Shown here piece by piece: positions 8,711 to 13,671 of a stretch of DNA of 43,615 nt. The first letter of the stretch is position 1; each line of letters opens with the position of its first letter. Position numbers and translations under genes: made by a program. The notes under the pieces are model-generated. The model was not told the DNA's origin, searched no databases, and saw only the letters and a program-made list of their open reading frames with translations. The stretch comes from an uncultured Alphaproteobacteria bacterium (lineage in GTDB: Bacteria; Pseudomonadota; Alphaproteobacteria; HIMB59; GCA-002718135), in assembly GCA_902591485.1 (NCBI GenBank), contig CACJAV010000011.1, positions 1 to 43,615 of the forward strand, read 5' to 3'.

Positions 8711-10258
8711 TTATTTTCTTATGTAATTTTTAATATCAGCAATAGTGACTATTTTTAATATTAAAATGAATACCACATAAAAAGCAGCAGTAATAATCAT
8801 AGTAAGCATCAAATAGATGATATTTTTCATGATTTCTACTAAATATAACTCAGCAAAAAAGAAACTGTTCAAATAACGAGTAATCAAAACAAGTCCTAAT
8901 AAACATCCAATTAATTTAAATACGTTGATTATAAATTGGCGGTCTAAATTTAATAATTTTTTACTCATAAGTATTATAAAAAGCAGAATTGCATTGACCC
9001 ATGCGCTGATAGCAGTTGCCAAAGCAATGCCCATCTCTCTCATCGTGCTTATTAATAAGAGAGAGAGGATTATGTTGACGAGGACACTCACAATTGAAAC
9101 GTATAGCGGTGTTTTTGTATCTTCTCTGGCAAAAAAACAAACAATTAAAACCTTAATCAATACATAAGCTGGAAGTCCTAAAGCAAAATAACTAAGAACC
9201 TGAGAAGTAAAGATTGTATCTTCTTGAGTAAAGGCACCGCGCTCAAATAAAATATGTACAATAGGTAATGCTAAAATATATAAACCAATTGCTGAGGGAA
9301 TAGATATTAGTAAGGCAAATTCTAAAGAATTATTTTGGAGCTTTTTCGTAATTTCATTGTCATTAGACTTAATTGATTTTGATAGACTGGGAAGTAAAAC
9401 TACTCCTAAAGCAATACCAAATATTGCTAAAGGTAATTGATTTAATCTATCAGCGTAATAAAGGTGACTAATTGCACCTACAGGGAGAAATGAAGCAATA
9501 ACAGTTCCTATAATAATATTTAATTGAATAACACCAGATCCAATTACACCGGGAAAAAATAATTTAAAAAACTTTTTTATTTTGTCATTCAATTCTGGAA
9601 TTTTAATTTTAGGTTTATAAAATTGAAATACAGATCGGTACAAAAATAAAAATTGTGCAACCCCTCCAATCAAAACACCAATGGACAACGCGTGACCCGC
9701 TGAACTTACGTAGGGGGTAATAACAAAAAGTGAGAGAATAAAACTAATATTTAAAATAGCAGGAGCAAATGCACCTGCAGCAAATTTTTCATGTACATTT
9801 AAAATTGACGTGAAATGAGCAGCTAAGGAAATAAAAATTAAATAAGGGAATATAATTTTTCCATAATAAACTGCTAAATCAAATGACTCACTATTAGTTG
9901 AAAAGCCAGGTGCTAGTATTTGAATAATATACGGCATTCCAAAAAAGAAAATGATGGTTAAGAAAAAGGTAACTAAAAGTAACAATGACATTGTATTTTC
10001 AACAAAGTCAGCTGCTTCATGATCATCTTTAGCATCTATTACAATGCCTGAAAAAACTGGAATAAGGGCAGCACTATATGCACCTTCTGCCAAAACACGT
10101 CGAAAGAAATTAGGAATTCGAAAAGCCACAAAGAAGGCATCTGATGTTACGGTAGATCCAAGAAAGCGAGCTATTAATATATCACGTATAAATCCTAATA
10201 TTCTGCTCAGTATTGTATAAAAACTAACAGTAAAAAAGGATCTGAATATAGTCTGCAT
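8711..10258 (-). CDS. murJ: Lipid II flippase MurJ
   Basis: A 515-residue integral membrane protein of the MOP superfamily with about 14 membrane segments. The N-terminal signature [25 protein letters not shown] and [24 protein letters not shown] (in pieces) match MurJ, which flips lipid-linked peptidoglycan precursors across the inner membrane. Arginines in the first helices that are important in E. coli MurJ are present. It is the first gene of the minus-strand murJ-trpS run and its start faces a 145-base region leading to the Cys-rich ORF on the other strand. Confidence 0.95.
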
Positions 10259-10403
10259 TAGCTAATTTTATATTGTGATGAGTGATTTGTATAAATTTTA
10301 TTTGTGTCTCAATTTAGTTGAAAAGCACTAAATCTATTGTTTTTTTATAATCTCATTCAAATATATCCTTGAAAATGTAGATTTCATTAGTATTAATAAT
10401 GCT

Positions 10404-10487
10404 ATGAAAAATGAAAATCCTAACCCACCTAAGTGTGGCTGTAGCTGTAGCTGTTGTTGTACTTGTGAAGGTGGAGGGTGTTGCTAA
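10404..10487 (+). CDS. Tiny cysteine-rich peptide (27 residues, 9 Cys), candidate metal-binding peptide
   Basis: ATG at 10404 opens a 27-codon frame ending with TAA at 10485. After a polar, Pro/Asn-rich start of ten residues come CGCSCSCCCTC and, after Glu-Gly3, a C-terminal Cys-Cys pair: nine cysteines in the last 17 residues. This density resembles metallothionein-like or metal-chaperone peptides, but I recognise no family. An intrinsic terminator follows directly and overlaps the last codons. There is no clear Shine-Dalgarno, in keeping with many other genes here. It lies alone on the plus strand between murJ and znuA, beside the zinc-uptake locus; no Zur-like palindrome is upstream. Alternatives are a small RNA or chance ORF; the Cys bias in an AT-rich genome argues against chance. 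Confidence 0.6.
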   Translation: MKNENPNPPKCGCSCSCCCTCEGGGCC

Positions 10488-10514
10488 ATTAACACCCTAA
10501 ATTTCCACCTTTTT
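10470..10514 (+). terminator. Intrinsic terminator overlapping the end of the Cys-rich ORF
   Basis: The arms AGGGTGTT (10475-10482) and AACACCCT (10491-10498) pair perfectly around an 8-base loop containing the stop codon. The stem can extend with GGTGG (10470-10474) and CCACC (10505-10509) across a 6-base bulge, followed by TTTTT (10510-10514). It points along the plus strand only. The left arm encodes the C-terminal Gly-Gly-Cys residues, so coding and termination are superimposed. Confidence 0.7.
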
Positions 10515-10528
10515 AAATTATTGTAATA

Positions 10529-11605
10529 TTAACAACCCTTCAGTTCATTACCTAAATTACTTATTAATTTAAAGTAAAGATCTTTATCAGAAGTAATATT
10601 TGCTCCTAGAGGATCAAAGACACCTGTTTTGATATTAGTGTCCTCTGCTATTGTTGAAATAATCTTTGGATTAAATTGAGGTTCAGAGAAAATACAATTA
10701 ATTCCTTTATCCTTAATTACATCCTGAATATCTGCAACCTGCTTAGCACCAGGAAGAACATCTGTATTTAATGTTAAGGCCCCTGCTGCTCTCACCCCAA
10801 ATCTTTCTTCAAAATATTGGTAAGCATCATGAAACACTACAAATTTTGCATCCTTATTGATGTCTTTACTTACATCTTTAATTAGTTGATCAAGTGCAAT
10901 AATAGTTGCCTCAGCATTAGCTTCATATTTATCCTTATTAGCAGGATCTAAATCACCTAATTCATGAGCAATTTCGTGAACCATTTCTTTTGCATTGCTT
11001 GGGTCTAACCATATGTGAGCATCAAACTCTCCATGGTTATGACCTTCATGTCCAGCATGATCGTCATGGTCATCGTGGTCATCATGATCGTCATGGTCAT
11101 CGTGATCATCATGATCGTCATGGTCATCGTGATCATCATGATCGTCATGGTCATCATGATCATCATGATCATCATGATCATCATGGTCATCATGATCGTC
11201 ATGGTCGTCATGATCGTCGTGATCACCAAAAATAGACTCTTCTCTAAATTTTAATTTTTCAATACTTTCAACTTCCATGAACTCAACAACTTCCGCATTT
11301 TTTGCTATAGATTCAAGTGGTCCTTCCATGAACGTTTCTATTCCTTCTCCAACCCAAAAAATTAAGTCAGCTTCTTCAAGAAGTTTTGCATGTGATGGTT
11401 TAAGCGTAAAACTATGAGGTGATGTACTGCCCTCAATTATTAATGATGGTTCACCTACACCATCCATTACGTTTGCAATAAGTGAGTAAAGTGGTTTAAT
11501 TGTTGTAACAACTTTTAATTCTGCTCGTGCAGAAGAAGTTGTAACAATAATCATTGAAAAAAATAAAGCTTTTAAAAGCGTTATAAAATAATTGTTTTGT
11601 CTCAT
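10529..11605 (-). CDS. znuA: Zinc ABC transporter substrate-binding protein ZnuA with a long Asp-His repeat
   Basis: A 358-residue periplasmic zinc-binding protein with a signal peptide (about 1-28, ending ARA). Cluster A-I metal ligands are visible: His64 (SPHSF), His197 (DAHIWLDP), His259 (VVFHDAY) and the late Asp in FDPLGAN. The variable loop between the first two ligands is very long: DH, 18 DDH units (residues 130-183), then AGHEGHNHG, giving 22 His in about 63 residues. Such loops in ZnuA are thought to capture or pass on zinc; this one is unusually regular. The gene is transcribed away from znuC across a Zur palindrome. Two C-terminal-half cysteines may form the ZnuA disulfide. Confidence 0.95.
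   Translation of the reverse strand: MRQNNYFITLLKALFFSMIIVTTSSARAELKVVTTIKPLYSLIANVMDGVGEPSLIIEGSTSPHSFTLKPSHAKLLEEADLIFWVGEGIETFMEGPLESIAKNAEVVEFMEVESIEKLKFREESIFGDHDDHDDHDDHDDHDDHDDHDDHDDHDDHDDHDDHDDHDDHDDHDDHDDHDDHDDHAGHEGHNHGEFDAHIWLDPSNAKEMVHEIAHELGDLDPANKDKYEANAEATIIALDQLIKDVSKDINKDAKFVVFHDAYQYFEERFGVRAAGALTLNTDVLPGAKQVADIQDVIKDKGINCIFSEPQFNPKIISTIAEDTNIKTGVFDPLGANITSDKDLYFKLISNLGNELKGC
11057..11218 (-). repeat. In-frame tandem repeat, 18 x 9 bp (Asp-Asp-His), with a 27-bp higher-order period
   Basis: The znuA loop is 162 bases of a 9-base unit encoding Asp-Asp-His. On the plus strand four near-identical 27-base blocks (11059-11085, 11086-11112, 11113-11139, 11140-11166), each beginning GATCGTCATGG, are followed by single 9-base units, so expansion happened both in 9- and 27-base steps. 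All length changes by whole units keep the frame. The repeat opens long ORFs in other frames on both strands, which are artefacts. Confidence 0.95.
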
Positions 11606-11663: not shown

Positions 11664-11680
11664 ATGTTATAATATAACAT
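11664..11680. promoter_or_regulatory. Zur operator in the divergent znuA/znuCB-zur promoter
   Basis: ATGTTATAATATAACAT is a perfect 8+1+8 palindrome and matches the core of the Zur box known from proteobacteria. It contains TATAAT (11668-11673) on the plus strand and a TATATT-like -10 on the minus strand, so bound Zur would block both promoters. A partial half-site (TGTTATAAAAC, about 11650-11660) lies just to the left. The plus-strand leader would be only about 20 bases before the znuC ATG. A zur gene is three genes downstream, so the circuit appears autoregulated. Confidence 0.88.
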
Positions 11681-11700: not shown

Positions 11701-12444
11701 ATGGCTGAAAAAAACAACTTATTAGTAAAATTAGATAACGGTGGTGTCTATAAATCATCAAAGTGGTTGGTAAGAGGAGTATCTTTAGAGTTATATAAAG
11801 GTCAAATCATAACTCTAATTGGTCCCAACGGTTCAGGTAAAACCACTACAGCAAAAATGATTCTAAATATCCTTAAGTCCGATGAAGGAAAAATGGAGAG
11901 CTACACTTCTAAGATGGCTTATGTTCCTCAAAAAATTAGTATTGATTGGACCATGCCACTTAGAGTTATAGATTTTATGAAATTAACTAATCATATTAAC
12001 AATGCTGATATAACTGAAGCTTTAAAATTAACTGGTGTAGAAGATTTACTTTACAATCAAATTAATAACTTATCGGGTGGAGAATTTCAGCGCGTTCTTA
12101 TAGCTAGAGCTATTGCAAAAAAACCAGAATTACTTGTTTTAGATGAACCTGTTCAGGGAGTAGATTTTAACGGTGAAATAGCACTTTATAATTTAATAAA
12201 AAAAATTGCATCAACATTAAATTGCGGCATCTTATTAATTTCGCATGATATGCACTTCGTAATGTCAGCAACGGATCATGTAATTTGCTTGAATGGCCAC
12301 ATTTGTTGCTCAGGCTCTCCTAGCGCAGTTATTAAAGATTCTGCATATATAGAATTATTTGGGGAACATACGGCGGCAACCTTATCTTTATATAAACATC
12401 ATCATGATCACTCGCATGAAACAGATGGGAGTGTTGCTAAATAA
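11701..12444 (+). CDS. znuC: Zinc ABC transporter ATP-binding protein
   Basis: A 247-residue ABC ATPase that powers zinc import through ZnuB. Walker A GPNGSGKTT (from about residue 41), Q-loop in YVPQKIS, signature LSGGEFQR (about 124-131), Walker B LLVLDEP (about 144-150) and the H-loop SHD are intact. The C-terminus carries a His-rich tail, KHHHDHSHE, which may bind zinc and is a recurrent ZnuC feature. The stop and the znuB start share a base (TAATG). First gene of znuC-znuB-zur, directly after the Zur palindrome. Confidence 0.95.
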   Translation: MAEKNNLLVKLDNGGVYKSSKWLVRGVSLELYKGQIITLIGPNGSGKTTTAKMILNILKSDEGKMESYTSKMAYVPQKISIDWTMPLRVIDFMKLTNHINNADITEALKLTGVEDLLYNQINNLSGGEFQRVLIARAIAKKPELLVLDEPVQGVDFNGEIALYNLIKKIASTLNCGILLISHDMHFVMSATDHVICLNGHICCSGSPSAVIKDSAYIELFGEHTAATLSLYKHHHDHSHETDGSVAK

Positions 12445-13247
12445 TGTTTGATGATTTTTTTACTCGAGCTTTAATAGCAGGTGTTGGGATTGCAATTATT
12501 GCAGGACCACTTGGCTGTTTAGTTATATGGAGACGTTTATCATACTTTGGAGATACATTATCACACTCAGCCTTACTCGGTGTTACACTCGCGTATGCAT
12601 TTAGTATTAATATTACTCTGTCTGTTTTCATTATCTCTTCAGTTGTTGCTATACTTCTTATTAATTTACAAAAAAGAACAAAATTAGCCGGAGACTCCTT
12701 GCTTGGTCTTCTTGCGCATTCTACGCTTGCAATTGGATTAGTATTAATTGGTTTTCTCTCTTCAATACGTTTTGATCTAATGGGCTTGTTATTTGGTGAC
12801 ATACTTGCAGTAACAACAGATGATATTGCATTGGTTTGGATTGGCGGAATAATTATTTTAGGTATCTTATATTTTATTTGGAAATCTCTTTTCTCCGCAA
12901 CCGTTAATTATGATTTAGCGGCCGCTGAAGGAATGAGGCCTGAAATTTCTAATTTAATTTTTACCCTTTTATTGGCTGCAGTAATTGCATTGTCGATAAA
13001 AATGATCGGCGCCTTATTAATAACAGGACTGCTTTTAATTCCTGCAGCCATAGCGCGTAATCTAAGTAACAGCCCAAAACAAATGATAATAATAGCTATT
13101 TTAGCTGGTATTGCTTCTGTAGTTCTTGGATTATTTACATCTTTAGAGCTTAACACTTCCTCAGGACCTTCTATAGTAGTAGTATCACTGGCATTATTTA
13201 TTCTTTCACTCATCCCGCTTGAGATAAGAGGTCAGTTGCAAAAATGA
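12444..13247 (+). CDS. znuB: Zinc ABC transporter permease
   Basis: A 267-residue ABC-3 family permease with about eight membrane segments. The N-terminal FFTRALIAGVGIAIIAGPLG and GDTLSHSALLGV segments are diagnostic of ZnuB/TroC-type metal permeases, as is AAAEGMRPE in the coupling region before the C-terminal half. It is translationally coupled to znuC and ends 22 bases before zur. The homodimer would form the inner-membrane zinc channel served by ZnuA and ZnuC. Confidence 0.95.
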   Translation: MFDDFFTRALIAGVGIAIIAGPLGCLVIWRRLSYFGDTLSHSALLGVTLAYAFSINITLSVFIISSVVAILLINLQKRTKLAGDSLLGLLAHSTLAIGLVLIGFLSSIRFDLMGLLFGDILAVTTDDIALVWIGGIIILGILYFIWKSLFSATVNYDLAAAEGMRPEISNLIFTLLLAAVIALSIKMIGALLITGLLLIPAAIARNLSNSPKQMIIIAILAGIASVVLGLFTSLELNTSSGPSIVVVSLALFILSLIPLEIRGQLQK

Positions 13248-13269: not shown

Positions 13270-13671
13270 ATGAGCGAAGCACTAGATACCCTAACAAAAA
13301 ATCAGCAAACAGTACTTGATATTTTAGAGAGTGCTAAAGAGCCTCTCAAGGCATATGCAATTCTTTTTGATACACAAAAAAAAGGAATCAAAGCACCCCT
13401 GCAAGTATACCGCGCTTTGGATAAATTAATTGAAATTGGTAAGGTACATAAAATAGAGAGTAAAAATTCATACATAGCTTGTAAGCATAAAAGTTGTGAT
13501 GCAGGTACATCGACTTCTTTTTTAATTTGTGAGATATGTGATCTAGTTACAGAACTTAAGAAAAATGTATCATCTTATTTCTCAAAGCAAAGTGCAGAGG
13601 TCAATTTTTCATACTCAAAACACAATTTAGAAATTTATGGAATTTGCAATAATTGTAAAATAAATAACTAG
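13270..13671 (+). CDS. zur: Zinc uptake regulator, Fur family
   Basis: A 133-residue Fur-family repressor. An N-terminal winged-helix domain (about 1-75, with LKAYAILFDTQKKGIKAPLQVYRALDKLIEIGKVHKIES in pieces) is followed by a dimerisation and metal domain with CEIC (about 95-98) and CNNC near the C-terminus, the structural zinc cysteines. Its place at the end of znuCB and the palindrome upstream of the operon make Zur much more likely than Fur or Mur. It is the only Fur-family gene in the window. Zn-loaded Zur should repress znuA and its own operon. Confidence 0.9.
   Translation: MSEALDTLTKNQQTVLDILESAKEPLKAYAILFDTQKKGIKAPLQVYRALDKLIEIGKVHKIESKNSYIACKHKSCDAGTSTSFLICEICDLVTELKKNVSSYFSKQSAEVNFSYSKHNLEIYGICNNCKINN

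Follow-up and report, generated by a model that had tools for sequence, protein, structure and literature searches.

The window analysed here, a stretch of 43,615 nucleotides from an uncultured alphaproteobacterium taken to belong to the AEGEAN-169/HIMB59 group, contains between an mviN/murJ-like gene and the zinc-uptake gene znuA a very short gene encoding a Cys-rich micropeptide, MKNENPNPPKCGCSCSCCCTCEGGGCC (Table 1). Translation from ATG to TAA gives 27 amino acids with nine cysteines (33% of the residues), all of them within the last 17 positions, and neither an aromatic residue nor an evident signal peptide. The initial annotation had reported precisely this nine-Cys frame, and both its coordinates and its sequence proved exact; equally, its placement of the gene beside znu and zur genes has been borne out by the identification of znuA (PF01297) and of a Zur/Fur-family gene (PF01475).

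Table 1. Features of the micropeptide locus (positions in the window)
Feature	Position	Strand	Basis or remark
mviN/murJ-like gene, divergent neighbour	8711..10258	-	mviN name from sequence reading; pirin in most relatives
Candidate promoter, TTGAAA-16 nt-TATTAA, 7 nt before ATG	10369..10396	+	Weak, from spacing
Cys-rich micropeptide gene, 27 codons	10404..10487	+	Conserved frame, third-position variation, pN/pS ~0.07
Core CGCSCSCCCTC, seven Cys	10434..10466	+	Invariant; common to both families
Terminal Cys pair of the micropeptide	10479-10484	+	
Terminator-like hairpin, then T run to 10514	10468..10511	+	Predicted; clade-specific
znuA, zinc-binding periplasmic protein, convergent neighbour	10529..11605	-	PF01297, E 2e-64
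Perfect palindrome TGTTATAATATAACA between znuA and znuC	11665..11679	.	Candidate Zur box
znuC-like ATPase	11701-12444	+	Sequence and position only
znuB-like permease	12444-13247	+	Sequence and position only
Zur/Fur-family regulator	13270-13671	+	PF01475

Such a composition is exceptional in this DNA. Among the 188 ATG-initiated frames of 20–60 amino acids in the window, the micropeptide alone has at least nine Cys or at least 25% Cys, and 60 Markov-resampled windows, used as a chance control, yielded 18,908 frames of the same size range, of which one had at least nine Cys and none exceeded 25% Cys, against 33% in the micropeptide. A chance frame is ruled out by this control together with the matches in relatives. 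A second frame overlaps the gene in another register (10411-10500, plus strand; MKILTHLSVAVAVAVVVLVKVEGVAKLTP, 29 aa); it was rejected as coding because the substitution pattern lends it no support (ratio for frame 1, 7.3).

Conservation of the micropeptide and selection on its frame

A protein search found the micropeptide in 74 of 102 genomes of the genus with E-values of 1.3e-9 or better; eight of these matches, the window itself included, are 100% identical. The frame is intact at 71 of the 74 loci, which represent 39 different DNA sequences and 13 different peptides with the Cys spacing CxCxCxCCCxC-x4-CC. An order-wide search added 36 genomes, all from one genus of a second family; their E-values of 0.0015-0.035 come from a single-query search, after which the frames were read directly. 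The second-family relative is a 26-aa peptide of the MDNNKPKPDCGCSCSCCCTCGDGCCQ type that bears the same core as in the first genus (with one S-to-P variant), and its start and stop arrangement matches that of the genus copies. A profile of both families, built partly from the sequences it then matched, detects the 110 genomes of the order that match, every one of them at E ~3e-10 or better. His is absent from every distinct sequence in both families.

The gene is present in two of the seven genera of the order. A class-level profile search gave only weak matches outside the order (best E 0.006), and a pattern scan of genome contigs placed the family, among the matches listed, only in uncultured Alphaproteobacteria. 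A second weak match in genome G084 (E ~0.1) was regarded as chance. A phage origin was rejected, since tblastn gave no match to the micropeptide in phages and the frames behind the degenerate-pattern matches in viral contigs are unrelated to it and Cys-rich only by chance. Three genomes of the genus carry damaged copies, with a frameshift, a truncated 3′ end or a lost ATG, and the gene is absent from the complete genome G025, indicating that it is dispensable in some lineages. In all three damaged cases (L050, L093, and L105), the adjoining DUF1636 gene is also missing, and two of them have a broken 3′ end of the peptide gene, which suggests deletions.

The substitution pattern is that of a protein-coding gene. 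In the genus, 23 of the 27 third codon positions vary, compared with seven first and six second positions; the corresponding figures in the second family are 22 of 26, two, and two. By the method of Nei and Gojobori, pN/pS in the real frame is 0.067 for the genus and 0.064 for the second family, the next-lowest value (0.17) belonging to an antisense register with shared wobble columns. TGT and TGC alternate at all nine Cys codons in the genus, and Cys is nevertheless retained at 584 of 585 positions across the distinct DNA sequences of both families, the sole loss among intact copies being C11F in G094. The non-Cys residues, including a Pro-rich N-terminus, are conserved as well, and the flanks are less similar than the frame. 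Changes confined almost entirely to third positions and a low pN/pS point to selection on the peptide rather than on the RNA. The initial annotation had named, as the outcome that would speak for a small RNA, conserved nucleotides around a frame whose Cys positions had drifted; the reverse was found, with the frame and its cysteines kept while synonymous positions and flanks change. The micropeptide is therefore encoded by a genuine gene, which is strongly conserved within a single order of small-genome marine Alphaproteobacteria.

Genomic context and regulatory signals

At all 74 loci of the genus, the micropeptide gene faces either znuA or all or part of a cassette encoding a DUF1636 protein, an 84-aa protein, a WD40 protein, and a COG0523 (CobW) GTPase, which leads to znuA wherever the contig extends far enough. 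Over most of the genus, the cassette (e.g., L103 3379-6081) separates the peptide gene from znuA. The window's locus lacks the cassette, and a search of the window's genome (83% complete) did not recover its COG0523 gene; neither Pfam nor NCBIfam recognizes its 84-aa protein. The neighbouring ZnuA proteins range from ~333 to 530 aa: an HDD-repeat run (11040-11230, minus strand, in the window) varies greatly in length between relatives, and the longest protein read, that of L103, has an extra inserted segment. On the other side of the micropeptide gene, mviN is found at 14 loci of the genus, the window included, and pirin at 60; in the window's genome, pirin is located on another contig, beside a different gene. 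Since these sites differ, the zinc block is found at two places in the chromosome, each time accompanied by the peptide gene, which may reflect function or the mere position of a breakpoint.

Second-family copies are situated away from znu genes, most of them between a methyltransferase gene and a pair encoding a small membrane protein and a proteasome-type protease, which means that the zinc link is not universal. At L133 (2187-3852), the protease matches PF00227, and the 52-aa predicted membrane protein, encoded between the protease and the peptide gene, belongs to no known family. No copper genes have been identified among the neighbours in either family. What both contexts share is the orientation of the downstream neighbour, which is on the opposite strand in all 110 tabulated loci, so that the micropeptide gene forms a unit of its own; in its gene order, with mviN divergent and znuA convergent, the window fits the stand-alone transcription unit initially proposed.

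The candidate promoter has a counterpart of similar spacing in the second family (TTGTAA-17-TATTTA-6-ATG), and a consensus promoter scan did not report it. Its position so close to the ATG would tentatively imply a leaderless or very short-leader mRNA. The TGTTATAATATAACA palindrome is probably the Zur box of the znu promoter. In the 100 bp preceding the peptide gene, the best Zur-type site has at least three mismatches out of 15 (four in the window), so that no Zur box that would place the gene in the Zur regulon was found there.

As for the "dedicated terminator" initially annotated directly after the frame, a hairpin is indeed predicted, and the transcript of the gene has a stable fold (z -3.1); the 5′ arm is built from the last codons of the frame, however, so that the hairpin lies partly inside the gene and not just after it. 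It escaped a simple terminator scan, probably because of a bulge. Both arms are present in only 21 of the 71 intact genus copies, roughly those directly abutting znuA, and the hairpin is absent from the second-family copies that were folded, which makes it clade-specific.

Proposed function and competing explanations

Nine conserved cysteines in CxC/CCC/CC order, with no His, aromatic residues or signal peptide, are best explained by a metal-thiolate peptide, and the micropeptide is probably a small cytosolic metallothionein-like metal buffer, for zinc in the first place and Cu(I) in the second. Its nine thiolates would bind soft metal ions in a cluster, and the fold would form only on metal loading, with the Pro-rich N-terminus as a flexible tail or docking site. 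Most likely the micropeptide would store or ferry Zn(II) inside the cell and so smooth the supply by ZnuABC, Cu(I) or Cd(II) being possible alternative or additional ligands. Zinc is favoured because the neighbourhood is constant in the genus. A metallothionein-like role also agrees with the result that no PF02069 metallothionein that could already do the job was found in the relatives. The initial annotation's idea of a metal buffer or chaperone, derived from the znu/zur neighbourhood, is partly supported: it gains from the constant neighbourhood and from the conservation of frame and Cys positions, and loses from the second family, located off znu, from the missing Zur box, and from the clade-specific terminator.

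Because the second family breaks the zinc link, copper is the main rival: the micropeptide might be a Cu(I)-specific metallothionein-like sink, similar in action to MymT, with its zinc neighbourhood in one genus incidental. A CxC-rich, His-free composition such as that of the micropeptide suits Cu(I)-thiolate clusters, and both the position of the second-family copies and the absence of an upstream Zur box agree with a copper role. Nevertheless, co-location with the zinc block at every one of the 74 genus loci, which fall into two chromosomal sites, and the lack of identified copper genes around either family render a copper-only function unlikely.

Considerably less probable is a thiol redox peptide or a partner in metal or Fe-S delivery, for example, a client of COG0523 or DUF1636, as could be thought from the cassette adjoining the peptide in many genomes and from the conserved Pro-rich N-terminus; the window's genome (83% complete) has an intact peptide without the COG0523 cassette, and second-family copies do not adjoin it either. 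Slightly more doubtful still is a precursor of a modified peptide (a thiazole-type RiPP, a methanobactin-like metallophore or a bacteriocin). With its short N-terminal part ahead of a core rich in Cys, Ser, and Thr, the micropeptide resembles azole RiPP cores, but a search of 31 relatives, the window's genome among them, found neither YcaO (PF02624) nor MbnB_TglH_ChrH (PF05114), the two contexts share no gene for modification or export, and the near-invariant sequence is unlike that of diversifying bacteriocins.

In the window, a terminator-like hairpin comes after several consecutive Cys codons, an arrangement that would suit a Cys-codon attenuator or ribosome-stalling leader peptide. Such a role is highly improbable and was ruled out for want of a same-strand gene to control, the downstream neighbour being antiparallel at 110 of 110 loci; moreover, the hairpin is missing from 50 of the 71 genus copies and from the second-family copies folded, and residues other than Cys are conserved too. 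Least credible of all is a small regulatory RNA with an accidental frame, for in spite of the stable transcript fold, the third-position bias with pN/pS ~0.07 and the loss of the hairpin in most relatives exclude it as the main function, although a dual-function RNA may exist in the hairpin clade.

Small-genome ocean bacteria are abundant and live at very low metal supply, and little is known of how they store or buffer zinc and copper. A conserved 27-codon gene with Cys at one-third of its positions would add a metal-handling part that gene-calling length cut-offs conceal; few bacterial metallothionein-like proteins would be smaller than its product, which lends itself to testing as a synthetic peptide.

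Relation to known metallothioneins and zinc regulons

The micropeptide matches nothing in Pfam, NCBIfam, PHROGs or PDB sequences, in agreement with the initial annotation, which had matched it to no named family, and a sequence match to any metallothionein family was not found. A search of the literature on metallothioneins in SAR11 and on zinc in AEGEAN-169 returned nothing that apparently describes it. It does show the features by which metallothioneins are broadly recognized, being short, very Cys-rich, furnished with CxC and CC motifs, and conserved.

The same types of genes as in the Zur regulon cassettes (COG0523 subfamily 5 with WD40) adjoin the peptide in most of the genus; unlike those cassettes, the micropeptide gene has no Zur box found at it. 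In other prokaryotes, genes of COG0523 subfamily 5 are reported to stand in clusters together with WD40 genes and znuABC, and a Cys-rich micropeptide was not found in the accessible part of this account (PMC2770081).

With SmtA/BmtA, the bacterial metallothioneins of PF02069, the micropeptide shares small size, richness in Cys, a presumed cytosolic metal-thiolate nature, and a zinc context. It differs from them in being about half as long, in having no His ligands, which are common in bacterial metallothioneins (PMC10612145), and in failing to match the profile; its length is probably insufficient for the zinc-finger fold of SmtA. PF02069 was above its curated cut-off in none of the 31 relatives, in a search where four of 14 named control genomes gave a signal and one exceeded the cut-off. 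Without a profile match or His ligands, the micropeptide is not a member of this family.

The mycobacterial copper metallothionein MymT is, as the micropeptide is presumed to be, a very small Cys-based bacterial metal binder. It is set apart by description, as a RicR-regulated, copper-linked protein of 53 aa (PMC10470581) compared with 27 aa here.

The chances seem about even that the micropeptide founds a new family, the bacterial micro-metallothioneins, of 26-27 aa with the core CGCSCSCCCTC, which would have arisen in one order of oligotrophic ocean bacteria without classical metallothioneins and would provide an intracellular reserve of zinc (or copper) for a minimal outlay of protein. Short fungal copper metallothioneins of the Neurospora crassa type have about 25 aa and seven Cys. 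Although the micropeptide is bacterial, has another Cys spacing, and is not claimed to be homologous in sequence, it is like these fungal proteins in length, in its CxC motifs, and in the absence of His and aromatic residues.
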